Shown here in pieces: positions 31,122 to 36,161 of a DNA stretch of 64,000 nt. Below the pieces are notes generated by a model. It searched no databases, was not told where the DNA came from, and was given only the letters and a program-made list of their open reading frames with translations. The DNA lies in NCBI GenBank assembly GCA_947177225.1, contig CAMWTS010000001.1:62001-126000 (forward strand). Direction: 5' to 3'. The translations under genes and the position numbers were made by a program. The first letter of the stretch is position 1. Each line of letters starts with the position of its first letter. This stretch comes from an uncultured Alistipes sp. Its GTDB lineage: Bacteria > Bacteroidota > Bacteroidia > Bacteroidales > Rikenellaceae.

Positions 31122-31137
31122 TGGCACACAGTTTGAT
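31122..31137 (+). promoter_or_regulatory. Sigma54-like -24/-12 element upstream of htpG
   Basis: TGGCAC-acagt-TTGAT; GG-N10-GA spacing, one mismatch in the invariant GC. Confidence 0.35.
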
Positions 31138-31187
31138 TGACAATGCTCTGTAACAGAGAACAAACAAATTATAACCACATAAAAGAT

Positions 31188-33248
31188 ATGAAAAGCGGAA
31201 AAATAGGGGTAACGACAGAAAATATATTCCCCGTAATCAAGAAGTTTCTTTATTCCGATCATGAAATTTTCCTTCGTGAGCTGGTATCCAATGCAGTCGA
31301 TGCCACGCAAAAATTGAAGACATTGTCGGCCAAGGGCGAAGCCAAAGGCGAGCTGGGCGATTTGACTATACGCATAGCCGTCGACGAGTCGGCCAAAACA
31401 CTCACCGTCACCGACCGCGGAATAGGCATGACAGCCGAAGAGGTCGACAAATACATCAATCAGATTGCATTCTCCGGAGCCGAGGAGTTTATGGCCAAGT
31501 ATAAGGATCAGGCCATCATCGGACACTTCGGTCTTGGCTTCTACTCATCGTTTATGGTTGCCGACAAGGTGGAGATCTTCACCCGCTCGTATCGCGAAGG
31601 TGCCAAAGCCGTACATTGGAGCTGCGAAGGATCGCCCGAATTCGAGATGGAGGAGACCGACGAGCAGCGCGACCGCGGAACCACCATCGTCCTGCATCTG
31701 TCGGAGGATTGCGCCGAATATTGCCAGAAAAGCAAGATCGACGAATTGTTGAAGAAATATTGTCGATTCCTGCCTGTCGCCATCGCATTCGGCAAGAAAA
31801 CAGAGTGGAAAGACGGCAAGTATGTCGACACCGACCAGGACAATATAATCAACGACACCGATCCGCTGTGGACACGCAAACCGACCGACATAACGGAGGA
31901 GCAGTACAAGGAGTTTTATCGCGAGCTGTATCCGATGAGCGACGATCCGCTGTTCTACATTCATCTCAATATAGACTATCCGTTCAACCTCACCGGCATT
32001 CTCTATTTCCCGAAGATACACAACAACTTCGAGATACAGAAAAACAAAATACAGCTCTATTCGAATCAGGTGTTCGTTACCGATCAGGTCGAGGGTATCG
32101 TTCCGGAATATCTGACGCTGCTGCACGGTGTGATCGACTCGCCAGATATTCCGCTCAACGTATCGCGCAGCTATCTGCAAAGCGACTCAAACGTCAAGAA
32201 GATATCCGGTTACATCACCCGCAAGGTAGCCGATCGTTTGCAGGAGCTGTTTTCGACCATGCGTGCCGACTACGAGCAGAAGTGGGACGACCTGAAAATA
32301 TTCATTCAATACGGTATTCTCACCGATGAGAAATTTGCCGAAAAGGCTCAGAGTTTCATGCTCTGGAAAAGCATCGAGGGCAAATACTACACCGGCGAAG
32401 AGTACGAAGAGAAGATCAAGGAGCAGCAGACCGACAAGAACGGCAATCTGATAGTGCTCTATGTCGACGATCCGGTAAGCAAGGATTCGTTCGTCGAAGC
32501 GGCCAAAGCCAAAGGTTACGATGTATTGGAGATGAACGGACAGCTCGACAACCACTATATCAACTGGTATGAGTCGAAACACGACAAGACACGCTTCGTG
32601 CGTGTCGACAGCGATGTGATCGACAAACTAATACAAAAGGAGCATACGCAAAGCATGTCGTTGAGCGAGGCTCAACAGCAGATCATGCGTCCGGTATTCG
32701 AAAGCCAGATGCCCAAGGACGACAAGATACACTATCATATATCGTTCGAGCCGATGTCGGCCGACGAGGCTCCCGTCGTAATCACCCAAAACGAATTCAT
32801 GCGACGCATGAAGGAGATGGCACAGGTCAGCGGCGGTTCTATGAGCCAGTTCTACGGACAGATGCCCGACAACTTCACCATCGCCGTCAACGGCAATCAC
32901 CCGATCGTGATCGACATATTGAGCGAGGTGGAGTCGGCCTACGGCGACAAGCTGCGCACCATAACCAAGAAGATCGATGCCGCAGTGGTCGAGGAGGGAC
33001 GCTTCAACGAAGTGGTCAAAGACAAGAAGGAGGAGGATCTCTCGCCCGAAGAGAAGACGACTCGCGACGAACTCGCCCAGAAAGTGCTCGACCTGCGCCA
33101 ACAGCGCGATACGCGTTTGCAGGAGATCGGCGCAGCCAACGGCAAAGTGCGTCAGATAATCGATCTGGCACTGCTCAGCAACGGCATGTTGAAGGGTAAA
33201 AACCTTTCGGATTTCATACAGCGCAGCATATCGCTCATAGAGAAATAG
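31188..33248 (+). CDS. htpG: Molecular chaperone HtpG (Hsp90)
   Basis: KIGVTTENIFPVIKKFLYSDHEIFLRELVSNAVDATQKLK; IGHFGLGFYSSFMVADKVEI. Confidence 0.97.
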   Translation: MKSGKIGVTTENIFPVIKKFLYSDHEIFLRELVSNAVDATQKLKTLSAKGEAKGELGDLTIRIAVDESAKTLTVTDRGIGMTAEEVDKYINQIAFSGAEEFMAKYKDQAIIGHFGLGFYSSFMVADKVEIFTRSYREGAKAVHWSCEGSPEFEMEETDEQRDRGTTIVLHLSEDCAEYCQKSKIDELLKKYCRFLPVAIAFGKKTEWKDGKYVDTDQDNIINDTDPLWTRKPTDITEEQYKEFYRELYPMSDDPLFYIHLNIDYPFNLTGILYFPKIHNNFEIQKNKIQLYSNQVFVTDQVEGIVPEYLTLLHGVIDSPDIPLNVSRSYLQSDSNVKKISGYITRKVADRLQELFSTMRADYEQKWDDLKIFIQYGILTDEKFAEKAQSFMLWKSIEGKYYTGEEYEEKIKEQQTDKNGNLIVLYVDDPVSKDSFVEAAKAKGYDVLEMNGQLDNHYINWYESKHDKTRFVRVDSDVIDKLIQKEHTQSMSLSEAQQQIMRPVFESQMPKDDKIHYHISFEPMSADEAPVVITQNEFMRRMKEMAQVSGGSMSQFYGQMPDNFTIAVNGNHPIVIDILSEVESAYGDKLRTITKKIDAAVVEEGRFNEVVKDKKEEDLSPEEKTTRDELAQKVLDLRQQRDTRLQEIGAANGKVRQIIDLALLSNGMLKGKNLSDFIQRSISLIEK

Positions 33249-33276
33249 GGTAGACCCGCCTCAGTGCGTTTCGCCG

Positions 33277-33312
33277 ATAGCCGCAAAACATCGTGTTTTG
33301 CGGCTATTTTAT
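33277..33312 (+). terminator. Intrinsic terminator after htpG
   Basis: ATAGCCGCAAAAC-atcgt-GTTTTGCGGCTAT followed by TTTATTA. Confidence 0.8.
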
Positions 33313-33404
33313 TATACATACGACGCAAATAGTCATACAAAAGAAAAATTTTGCGTATATTTGAAAAAGGAAACGAAACTAATTACTATATAACCAGACG
33401 CAAA

Positions 33405-34625
33405 ATGACAACTATTTTCGAGAAGACCGGATTGCCGCGTTCGCTCGCGTGGGGATTTCTGGGTGTGCTCGTCTTCATGATGGGCGACGGCATAGAGCAG
33501 ACTTGGCTCAGCAAATATATCGACTCTCATGGTCTCGATCCGGCTACGCTGTTCAGCATATACGGAATCACCATAGCCATTTCATCGTGGCTGTCGGGTG
33601 TCATAGCCGAGACATTCGGCATCAAACGCACCATGCTGTTAGGTTATCTGATCTACATGGTCGGCATGGCGGGCTTCGCCGGCATCGGCATGACCGACAT
33701 GAACTACACCACGCTAATCATAACCTACGCATTCAAGGGTCTGGGCTATCCGCTCTTCGCCTATACGTTCATGGTATGGATAACTTATCGCGTCGACAAG
33801 CAACGGCTAAGTTCGGCACAAGGGTGGTTCTGGTTTGTCTTCACCGGAGGCCTGAATGTGCTCGGAGCCTACTACGGAGTATTCGCCATGAAGCACATAG
33901 GTGTGGTACCGACGCTGTTCACTTCGCTCGTCTTCGCCTCGATAGGAGCGTTGTTCGCACTGTGGGTCAACCGGTGCGATGACGGCAATCTGTTCGACGA
34001 CCGCGACAAAGCCGAAACCGGAGGTTCGAAGTGGCGCGAACTGTTGCAAGGATTCGCAATCATGAAACGCGAACCCAAAGTGTTGATGGGAGGCATCGTA
34101 CGCATAATAAACACCACCTCTCAATTCGCGTTTGTGGTCTTCATGCCGCTGTATCTCAAAGACTACGGCATAGGCGATACGGAGTGGGCTTCGATATGGG
34201 GATCGATATTCATGTTCAACATCATATTCAACCTCGTATTCGGCATCGTCGGCGACCGCATAGGCTGGAACCGCACCATAATCTGGTTCGGCGGCGTGGG
34301 TTGCGCTCTCACCGTTTTGTTGTTCTACTACTCGCCTGCCATATGCAACAACTTCTGGTTCATACTCCTTGCAGGTATACTGTGGTGCGTGATGCTGGCC
34401 GGATATGTTCCGCTCAGCGCATTGGTGCCGTCGCTCGTCGAGAAGGAGAAAGGTGCTGCAGTATCAGTCTTGAATCTCGGTGCCGGTCTATCCACATTCG
34501 TCGGACCGCTGCTCGTCAAACTCCTCAAAGAGCCTATCGGCTACGAGGGAATAGCATGGACACTGGCCGGACTGTATCTCGCCAGCGCCGTGATGACGCA
34601 CTACATCACACCATCGCATAAATAG
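33405..34625 (+). CDS. MFS transporter, probably polyol permease-like (RbtT/DalT/CsbX type)
   Basis: 12 TM; WGFLGVLVFMMGDGIEQTWLSKYI, SWLSGVIAETFGIKRTMLLGYLIY. Confidence 0.75.
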   Translation: MTTIFEKTGLPRSLAWGFLGVLVFMMGDGIEQTWLSKYIDSHGLDPATLFSIYGITIAISSWLSGVIAETFGIKRTMLLGYLIYMVGMAGFAGIGMTDMNYTTLIITYAFKGLGYPLFAYTFMVWITYRVDKQRLSSAQGWFWFVFTGGLNVLGAYYGVFAMKHIGVVPTLFTSLVFASIGALFALWVNRCDDGNLFDDRDKAETGGSKWRELLQGFAIMKREPKVLMGGIVRIINTTSQFAFVVFMPLYLKDYGIGDTEWASIWGSIFMFNIIFNLVFGIVGDRIGWNRTIIWFGGVGCALTVLLFYYSPAICNNFWFILLAGILWCVMLAGYVPLSALVPSLVEKEKGAAVSVLNLGAGLSTFVGPLLVKLLKEPIGYEGIAWTLAGLYLASAVMTHYITPSHK

Positions 34626-34644
34626 CATAGTATTAAAACAAAAA

Positions 34645-34675
34645 TAACCCCGCCTGGAAATTGCAGGCGGGGTTA
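34645..34675. terminator. Hairpin terminator between convergent genes
   Basis: TAACCCCGCCTG-gaaattg-CAGGCGGGGTTA, 12-bp stem. Confidence 0.6.
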
Positions 34676-34703
34676 AATATTTCGTTCAGATTTCAATGCT
34701 TCA

Positions 34704-35459
34704 TTATTCAGCATCTGACTCCGGCATACATGCTTCGATCTCTTTCAAACGCTCTTCAAAATCTATATAACCCGACGATCTCGATGAACATAACAGTTTA
34801 TATAGTTTGATCTTATTTTTCACCTCCGCCAAACGCATACGCGCCTGCGCGCCATTAGCTTCCGACAAATAATCCATATCATCGAACAACTCCATTTGCA
34901 ATTCGGCCAACAACTTGCGCCGCTCAGATGCAGACATTTTCGCTATCTGACTCTCCGGCATACTCCCTAATTTCGATAACGAAGCATCTTCGATATCGGC
35001 AGATAGGTCAGCATCATTCGGATAAATATACTCTATAATTGTTCCCGAGGTAATAAATTGTCGTCTCCAATATATCGGAAAGAAGACAAACATATCTTGT
35101 CGGCGCGACACGACATTGATTATCGCCTGATTACTCTTCAATTCGGCATTCTCACACATATCCGCAAGCGCATTGGCCTCTCTCGACCACTTCCTCATGC
35201 CACCTATGCCAAATATATAGGTGGCTTTCGCACGACCTTCCGCATGACCAACGACTTTATAACCGGTTGCAGAGTCCTGCAAGCGATTGGGATCAATGTC
35301 CGAATGACCGACATAATTGGTCAATGTACAACCAGATAAAACCAATACTGCCAAAATAGCAGCAATCGACGAAACTTTTCGACAAACCGAATGCAGAGCC
35401 GAAGTTCCGGATATGCCAAAACAAGAAAAGGTGCGGGCATTTGAACGATAGTAATTCAT
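34704..35459 (-). CDS. Putative lipoprotein of unknown function
   Basis: 251 aa; lipobox AAILAVLVLSGCT after an unusually long n-region; RAKATYIFGIGGMRKWSREANALADM. Confidence 0.7.
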   Translation of the reverse strand: MNYYRSNARTFSCFGISGTSALHSVCRKVSSIAAILAVLVLSGCTLTNYVGHSDIDPNRLQDSATGYKVVGHAEGRAKATYIFGIGGMRKWSREANALADMCENAELKSNQAIINVVSRRQDMFVFFPIYWRRQFITSGTIIEYIYPNDADLSADIEDASLSKLGSMPESQIAKMSASERRKLLAELQMELFDDMDYLSEANGAQARMRLAEVKNKIKLYKLLCSSRSSGYIDFEERLKEIEACMPESDAE

Positions 35460-35500
35460 AACTTATTGTTTTGTACTGCCGACCCCGACCAGTTTACATA

Positions 35501-35725
35501 AAAAGAAAGTGTGGAGTCGATTGATTTATCCGTTTCGAGGTTCTGGAATACCCTGCCCAAATAAACAATACTCCACACCCGTATTGGGCATGAAGCATAA
35601 AGCCACATGTACAAGCCAATACAAGGTGACGAGTGTGTTGTTTCTTGGGCAATGAAATTTTCCAGATTTCGAAACAAGAAATATCAATACACTTTCATCA
35701 ATTATATGTCGTGACCTCAGGTCAC
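35501..35725 (-). ncRNA. Candidate structured RNA, rod-like (6S-RNA-like or leader RNA)
   Basis: Nine consecutive nested helices (55 bp) over 35506-35695; minus-strand -7 TAACTTTG at 35737-35730; closing stem followed by CUUUUU at 35505-35501. Confidence 0.6.
35711..35725. promoter_or_regulatory. Perfect 7-1-7 palindrome GTGACCTCAGGTCAC at the predicted start of the candidate RNA
   Basis: Lies directly downstream of the TAACTTTG -7 element on the minus strand. Confidence 0.5.
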
Positions 35726-35777
35726 ACTACAAAGTTATGAATTATTTTGGATTTTACACATATATCCAATATGCAAA

Positions 35778-35808
35778 ATATGGCCTGCGAGATTCGCAGG
35801 CCATATTC
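35778..35808 (-). terminator. Terminator of trxA
   Basis: AATATGGCCTGCGA-gat-TCGCAGGCCATATT, then T-rich on the minus strand. Confidence 0.75.
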
Positions 35809-35829
35809 GATTTGAGATAGCAAACCCAC

Positions 35830-36144
35830 TTACAGCAACACGTCGATCTTTGCTTTCAACGCATCTTTGGTCGCAGCACCGACATGCTTGTCGACCTGCT
35901 TGCCGTCTTTGAGGAAGACCAGAGTCGGGATATTGCGCACACCATATTGAGCAACGATGTCGTCGTTGGCATCTACATCGCACTTGCCGATGATTACCTT
36001 GCCGTCATACTCCTCAGCCAACTCGTCTACAATGGGAGCGATCATTCTGCACGGACCGCACCACTCTGCCCAAAAATCGATAACGACGGGCAAACCCTTA
36101 GCCAAAACCTCTTCGTAGTTCTCTTTTGTGATCTTTAATGCCAT
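35830..36144 (-). CDS. trxA: Thioredoxin
   Basis: MALKITKENYEEVL...VIDFWAEWCGPCRMIAPIVDELAEEYDGKVIIGKCDVDANDDI...GVRNIPTLVFLKDGK. Confidence 0.96.
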   Translation of the reverse strand: MALKITKENYEEVLAKGLPVVIDFWAEWCGPCRMIAPIVDELAEEYDGKVIIGKCDVDANDDIVAQYGVRNIPTLVFLKDGKQVDKHVGAATKDALKAKIDVLL

Positions 36145-36161
36145 AGCTCTAAACAATTTTA

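Follow-up and report, generated by a model that had tools for sequence, protein, structure and literature searches.

Structure of the element

What kind of RNA is encoded on the minus strand between trxA and the adjacent lipoprotein gene of this uncultured Alistipes sp., and what does it do there? An earlier note on this stretch of DNA (64 kb, called the window throughout) had described one continuous rod with a promoter and a terminator of its own, and had suggested that it is a 6S RNA. We folded the minus strand from 35740 to 35496 and observed one long rod with a minimum free energy of -84 kcal/mol, as compared to a shuffled mean of -54.5 kcal/mol (z -6.3), and none of 200 dinucleotide shuffles was equally stable. 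The claim of a continuous rod was thus borne out, and every nested stem that had been listed could be found in the computed structure. The proposed -7 box is present upstream of the rod, and the CUUUUU after the closing stem was also confirmed in the sequence. The open reading frame 35456..35677 had been judged spurious, and we agree, since it overlaps the structured element; as its frame is not retained in relatives, it was dropped as a coding gene.

A short hairpin, with a stem conserved across copies and a variable sequence, precedes the rod at the 5' end. The coordinates of all features are collected in Table 1. R1, a covariance model built on the rod, found a single copy in the window. 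What stands of the earlier reading is a structured, covarying minus-strand RNA that has a promoter of its own and a 3' end like that of a terminator; its identity as 6S RNA does not stand.

Table 1. Features of the element and of the gene that follows it (window coordinates; A1, alignment of 121 homologous copies)
Feature	Position	Strand	Evidence or remark
Promoter box -7, TAACTTTG (TAnnTTTG)	35730..35737	-	TAnnTTTG at the aligned site in 112/121 copies
5'-end hairpin, GTGACCTGAGGTCAC	35711..35725	-	covarying pairs 35:69, 36:68, 38:66 of A1
Core element (rod + U-tract)	35499..35703	-	full-length R1 match, 178 bits
Strand 1, GAAAGUGU	35689..35696	-	99.7% paired with A1 columns 344-351; 98.1% with 179-183
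P3 5' side, GUUUCGA	35669..35675	-	partner 35532-35538; strongest rod helix
Hairpin A (GAAA/UUUC), loop strand UCUGGAA, UCUGGAAAA	35660..35666	-	99.5% paired in A1
Strand 2, CACACUC	35631..35637	-	pairing in both folds
Strand 3, GUGUGGAGU	35570..35578	-	99.2% paired with strand 4, 121 copies
Hairpin B (AGGY/RCCU), loop strand UUCCAGA, AUUCCAGA	35542..35548	-	pairs with the loop of hairpin A
Strand 4, CGACUCCACACUUUC	35505..35519	-	terminator 3' arm; closes the rod; CGACUCC part pairs with strand 5
U-tract, UUUCUUUUU	35500..35508	-	immediately 3' of the terminator stem
Strand 5, GGGGUCG	35480..35486	-	about 20 nt upstream of the start codon, beyond the U-tract
DUF6567 lipoprotein gene (251 aa)	34704..35459	-	PF20205, E 2.7e-18

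The element is not a 6S RNA

The Rfam models for 6S, 6S-Flavo and Bacteroidales-1 had no match in the region even at E ≤ 10. Whole-genome searches with RF00013 and RF01693 also returned no match; the expected control genomes were matched by the same searches. The genome that holds the window (G000) has no 6S RNA by either model, and a true 6S RNA is therefore missing from it or too diverged for them.

6S RNA is a free-standing gene, usually present once (rarely twice) per genome. It has a central open bubble like a melted promoter, binds the sigma-70 RNA polymerase and templates pRNAs. The element resembles the 6S families (RF00013, RF01685, RF01693) in its long rod of similar length, its own promoter and its terminal U-run. 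It differs from them in being a gene leader with 14 copies in its genome, in having two folds, and in carrying a loop-loop core instead of the promoter-like bubble. We rejected membership in 6S RNA on the absent model matches, the copy number and the placement before genes. A 6S-like polymerase decoy is scarcely credible either, since the same points, together with the loop-loop helix in the middle of the rod, weigh against the one likeness, an approximately 190-nt rod with a promoter and a U-run.

The element is the leader of the DUF6567 gene

The lipoprotein gene is on the same strand as the element and its start codon is at 35459, so that we consider the element to be the leader of this gene and not an independent intergenic gene. 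In the 121-copy set, the median distance from the U-tract/terminator to the ATG was 53 nt. A second TAnnTTTG box before the start codon was found in none of 107 spacers. With the promoter in place ahead of the element and none in the spacers, the simplest way for the gene to be transcribed is read-through from the promoter of the element. The trxA gene upstream of it apparently ends in its own hairpin at 35775-35805 (read from the sequence).

We also evaluated the genes that follow other copies. The downstream genes were unrelated, as 97 proteins fell into 81 Pfam families of which none was common to more than 4. This absence of a shared Pfam family fits a regulon rather than gene duplication. 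Signal-peptide-like N-termini, as called by a hydrophobicity rule and not by a dedicated predictor, were seen in 74/95 targets (78%) against 204/562 neighbouring genes (36%; odds 6.2, p 3e-14). Among the targets, no coherent pathway that pointed to a ligand was found. The element was directly upstream in 6/18 divergent DUF6567 homologues elsewhere. The short proteins encoded after the element in two genomes of the class (L279 and L288) are alike (MENEHIFYPEF..., MEAATYFPNFEYPASE...) and may be a conserved target.

Copy number and distribution

Most of the training sequences of R1 came from one family, its alignment leans to the rod and its E-values are rough. With this model, 14 copies were found in the genome of the window, and 103/112 well-assembled genomes of the family carried the element at 1 to 21 copies each. 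Across the order it was present in 68/247 genomes, and in a sample of 249 genomes over the phylum it was present in 15, all in the same class. An exact-pattern search of the order had returned only the genome of the window, a misleading result, since the sequence varies. The scores were approximately 60-146 bits in the other families of the order and 37-61 bits in other orders. We regard the matches in other families of the order as convincing because of these scores, the presence of a 3:4 helix that was not part of the model, and the raw sequences, which were checked by eye.

In 129 of 200 family genomes, a DNA search returned matches that covered just the rod, usually several in each. The alignment of thirty copies begins at the TAnnTTTG box, spans the rod and reaches a short motif past the U-tract. 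In a pattern scan of named genomes, the hits were mostly in Alistipes, Tidjanibacter, Rikenella and other Rikenellaceae, and were scattered in other Bacteroidales.

Some copies are closely arranged. Two divergent pairs are present in the genome of the window, one at C17 36200-36404 (-) and 38728-38933 (+) (L212 and L211), with near-identical promoter regions, and one at C5 24978-25170 (-) and 25885-26114 (+) (L214). The divergent pairs of this genome are 0.7 to 2.3 kb apart. Tandem double copies precede one gene in two related genomes (L226:1280-1664 and L229:249-637).

The gene order at window 31137-36156 is htpG, an MFS transporter gene, the DUF6567 gene with the element, and trxA. In some relatives (L187 and L189) trxA is directly convergent to htpG, so that the MFS gene and the element-DUF6567 block look to have been inserted here. 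As the neighbourhood is not syntenic, the comparison shows no more than that the element-gene unit is absent from the trxA site in relatives.

A dispersed repeat or mobile element (MITE/REP-like) with no regulatory role would account for the many copies, the tandem arrangements, the location of some copies near contig edges and the empty trxA sites. We give this explanation hardly any weight, as the promoter, the leader spacing and the compensatory changes are conserved across families and orders, and the copies within the family are diverged and not near-identical.

Covariation supports the rod and a loop-loop core

The base pairs of the rod covary across the homologous copies of alignment A1. 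When the rod, the loop-loop helix, the short hairpins and the 4:5 pairing were considered together, 95.8% of the cells were paired, and shifting the pairing partners by one column lowered the pairing to about half. In the rod set we counted 542 double-change cells, as compared to 135 +/- 15 in shuffles. Double changes were present at 32 pairs of the rod, and none of 500 shuffles was as good. The P3 helix (columns 123-127 with 314-320) occurs with each of the four Watson-Crick pairs and has an APC z of 20-51 and double changes in 7/8 pairs.

In the middle of the rod we observed a covarying 7-bp loop-loop helix between the loops of hairpins A and B. The stems of the two hairpins covary independently (129:144 changes from AU to GC, and 300:309 is UA in 96 copies and CG in 23). 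An alignment of distant copies gave 351 double-change cells in the rod against 96 in shuffles, and there the loop-loop helix was 99.3% paired, with 75 double-change cells and double changes at 7/7 pairs. This helix has been rewritten repeatedly with compensation, for example to UCUCGCAA:UUGCGAGA in L211 and ACUACCAA:UUGGUAGU in L243. Within the family, UCUGGAA:UUCCAGA, GAAA/UUUC and GGY/RCC form a near-invariant core amid variable helices.

Such a core could be the binding site of an RNA-binding protein or of RNA polymerase (put-like processive antitermination), and binding would then select the rod or take the polymerase past terminators. The unrelated targets would suit a general machinery factor of this kind. 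However, the loop-loop sequences of distant copies are freely swapped with compensation, so that base identity as such is not read, and no candidate protein was found. We consider this explanation unlikely.

A second, exclusive fold ends in a predicted terminator

RNAalifold, when applied to A1, yielded a two-hairpin fold alone and not the rod. In a direct covariation scan the rod was at least equally supported. In the two-hairpin fold (fold T, as against the rod, fold R), the last 4 nt of strand 1 pair with strand 2, CCUUG pairs with CAAGG, and strands 3 and 4 form a 3' hairpin (GUGUGGGG:CUCCACAC) with the U-tract directly after it. In the rod the partner of strand 1 is strand 4, and that of strand 2 is strand 3, which otherwise forms the 5' arm of the terminator hairpin. 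Both folds use strands 1 to 4 and are thus mutually exclusive. The loop-loop pairing may be present in both.

The terminator fold was 98.6% paired in the 121 copies, with double changes at 13 pairs; the pairs of the terminator stem are mostly invariant and the covariation signal is confined to a few columns. The 3:4 pairing includes compensated GAGG:CCUC changes. At least 7 T were present within 10 nt after CACAC in 119/121 copies. The 3:4 helix was also found where it could not have been imposed by the search, as R1 modelled the rod without the 3:4 pairing. The 43 R1 matches come mostly from outside the family or are diverged, and in 42 of them the 3:4 helix ran uninterrupted over 7 pairs or more (mean of shuffles, 5.8). 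The last 10 nt of the match set held a mean of 8.1 T.

The calculated thermodynamics favour the rod over fold T, the rod being approximately 12 kcal/mol lower on average, a figure in which the two-hairpin fold was computed excluding the loop-loop pairing. The 3' hairpin by itself has approximately -28 kcal/mol. The closing stem of the rod also adjoins U residues, and therefore fold R itself might terminate. The features of an attenuator are present in the element, namely a placement from promoter to start codon on the same strand, a GC-rich hairpin with a U-tract, and a conserved alternative fold that excludes it.

Strand 5, which lies past the U-tract, pairs with the CGACUCC part of strand 4 (columns 337-342 with 395-400), with double changes in 6/6 pairs and 89.5% paired. 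Where strand 4 changes from CUCC to CCUC, the change is compensated both in strand 3 and in strand 5. In some distant copies the 4:5 pairing was weaker by eye.

This pairing bears on the possibility of a free small RNA, in which transcription would stop nearly always at the U-tract, the rod of approximately 220 nt would act in trans, and the gene would be a by-product of read-through. A promoter of its own, a stable 5' hairpin, a very stable fold and the U-tract are what such an RNA would have. It is nevertheless improbable, since the spacing to the start codon is short and varies rather little, no further promoter was found in between, and a strand beyond the presumed end covaries with strand 4. 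The 1-21 diverged copies per genome, of which the examined ones precede genes, and the association with DUF6567, retained over divergent homologues, also argue against it.

We also considered attenuation by a leader peptide. A mini-ORF, MKVY* (ATG AAA GTG TAT TAG), would position a ribosome at strand 1 and thereby decide between 1:2/3:4 and 2:3. ATG or GTG is present at this site in 114/121 copies of the family, and MKVY*, MKVFR* and MKV* are the commonest frames. However, about one third of these family copies have no early stop, the RTG and the frame are missing from distant copies (for example AAAAGCGTTTAGC), and the conservation of AAAGTGT is already accounted for by pairing. The peptide MKVY* was rejected, as it is not retained in the distant copies, and we believe that ribosome control at strand 1 is very unlikely. 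The mini-ORF is at window 35698-35684 (-), and at this site an overlapping stop-start, TGATG or TAGTG, is often seen.

Proposed mechanism

On balance we favour the explanation that the element, as the mRNA leader of the DUF6567 lipoprotein gene, is a bistable transcription attenuator that is riboswitch-like. Sequence comparison establishes the leader position, the promoter, both predicted folds, the U-tract, the 4:5 pairing and the copy number. We infer that the RNA switches between the two folds in vivo, with T as the OFF and R as the ON state. RNA polymerase would start past the TAnnTTTG box and make the 5' hairpin and then the switch of approximately 205 nt. In fold T, the 1:2 and 3:4 pairings would create an intrinsic terminator before the U-tract, and transcription would stop at 35500-35508. 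In fold R, the 1:4 and 2:3 pairings would create one rod with the loop-loop core, the terminator stem would be blocked and the gene would be transcribed. After read-through, strand 5 would pair with the bulge of strand 4, a pairing that might hold the rod in place or adjust translation. The balance between the folds would presumably be set by one signal, sensed at or near the loop-loop core. Since the core is shared and protected, this input should be common to all copies.

We put forward more tentatively, as a possibility that we would not yet call probable, a class-wide family of leaders in Bacteroidia, with up to approximately 20 copies per genome, that joins a regulon of mostly exported proteins to one intracellular signal through a strand-exchange switch. 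Two kissing hairpins would swap strands into a single rod, in the style of a Holliday junction, and thereby flip the terminator. If this is true, the element would represent a new class of orphan riboswitches or sensors, which might respond to a signalling molecule of Bacteroidota.

If the attenuator explanation is right, the element would rank among the structured leader RNAs with the highest abundance in a major family of gut bacteria. It would be present in most tested species of that family and reach other Bacteroidia, both gut and environmental, while being absent from Rfam 15. It would also unite, in each clade, many exported proteins of unknown function in one regulon. As a candidate sensor RNA it could be tested directly, and its design, based on strand exchange, would be unusual. 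It would further show how a rod-shaped fold of minimum energy can conceal a two-state switch and be taken for 6S RNA.

Relation to known regulatory RNAs

The trp and his attenuators work by the logic of 1:2 plus 3:4 (terminator) against 2:3. The element shares this logic and the U-tract after 3:4. It differs from them in having no class-wide leader peptide, in targets that are not biosynthetic operons, and in a strand 1 that also pairs with strand 4. With terminator/antiterminator riboswitches it shares the 5' leader position, the conserved core and the exclusive terminator and antiterminator. The c-di-GMP riboswitches are present in multiple copies and control exported proteins, and the element is like such multi-copy riboswitches in its many copies before unrelated genes for exported proteins. 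Unlike in riboswitches, the terminator and the rod share nearly the whole molecule, and there is no separate aptamer plus platform. Nor does the element match a riboswitch of Rfam.

No Rfam 15 family matched anywhere in the window at its gathering score. The one riboswitch hit, SAM-V, was below threshold (21 bits against 41), on the plus strand and at chance level, and it was discarded. The RNA family is thus missing from Rfam 15. No description of it was found in the open papers searched, and an earlier mention, for instance in supplementary motif lists, is possible. Flavo-1 (RF01705) is, like the element, a multi-copy RNA motif of Bacteroidota, and its hits are reported to be near 5' regions in Flavobacterium psychrophilum (PMC9723704). 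Neither the region of the element in the window nor any locus scanned was matched by it.

DUF805 RNA (RF03081) is likewise a cis-regulatory RNA of Bacteroidota, but it differs from the element in sequence and fold, and it had no match in the window or in the genome that holds it. As a constant partner of the element it was rejected, since the two were together at four distant loci only and the element was present at 0/30 top DUF805 loci. In these four distant genomes (L228:1392-1460, L236:1709-1774, L237:1799-1864 and L233:704-773), the DUF805 RNA starts approximately 40-130 nt after the element, and the two form a compound leader.
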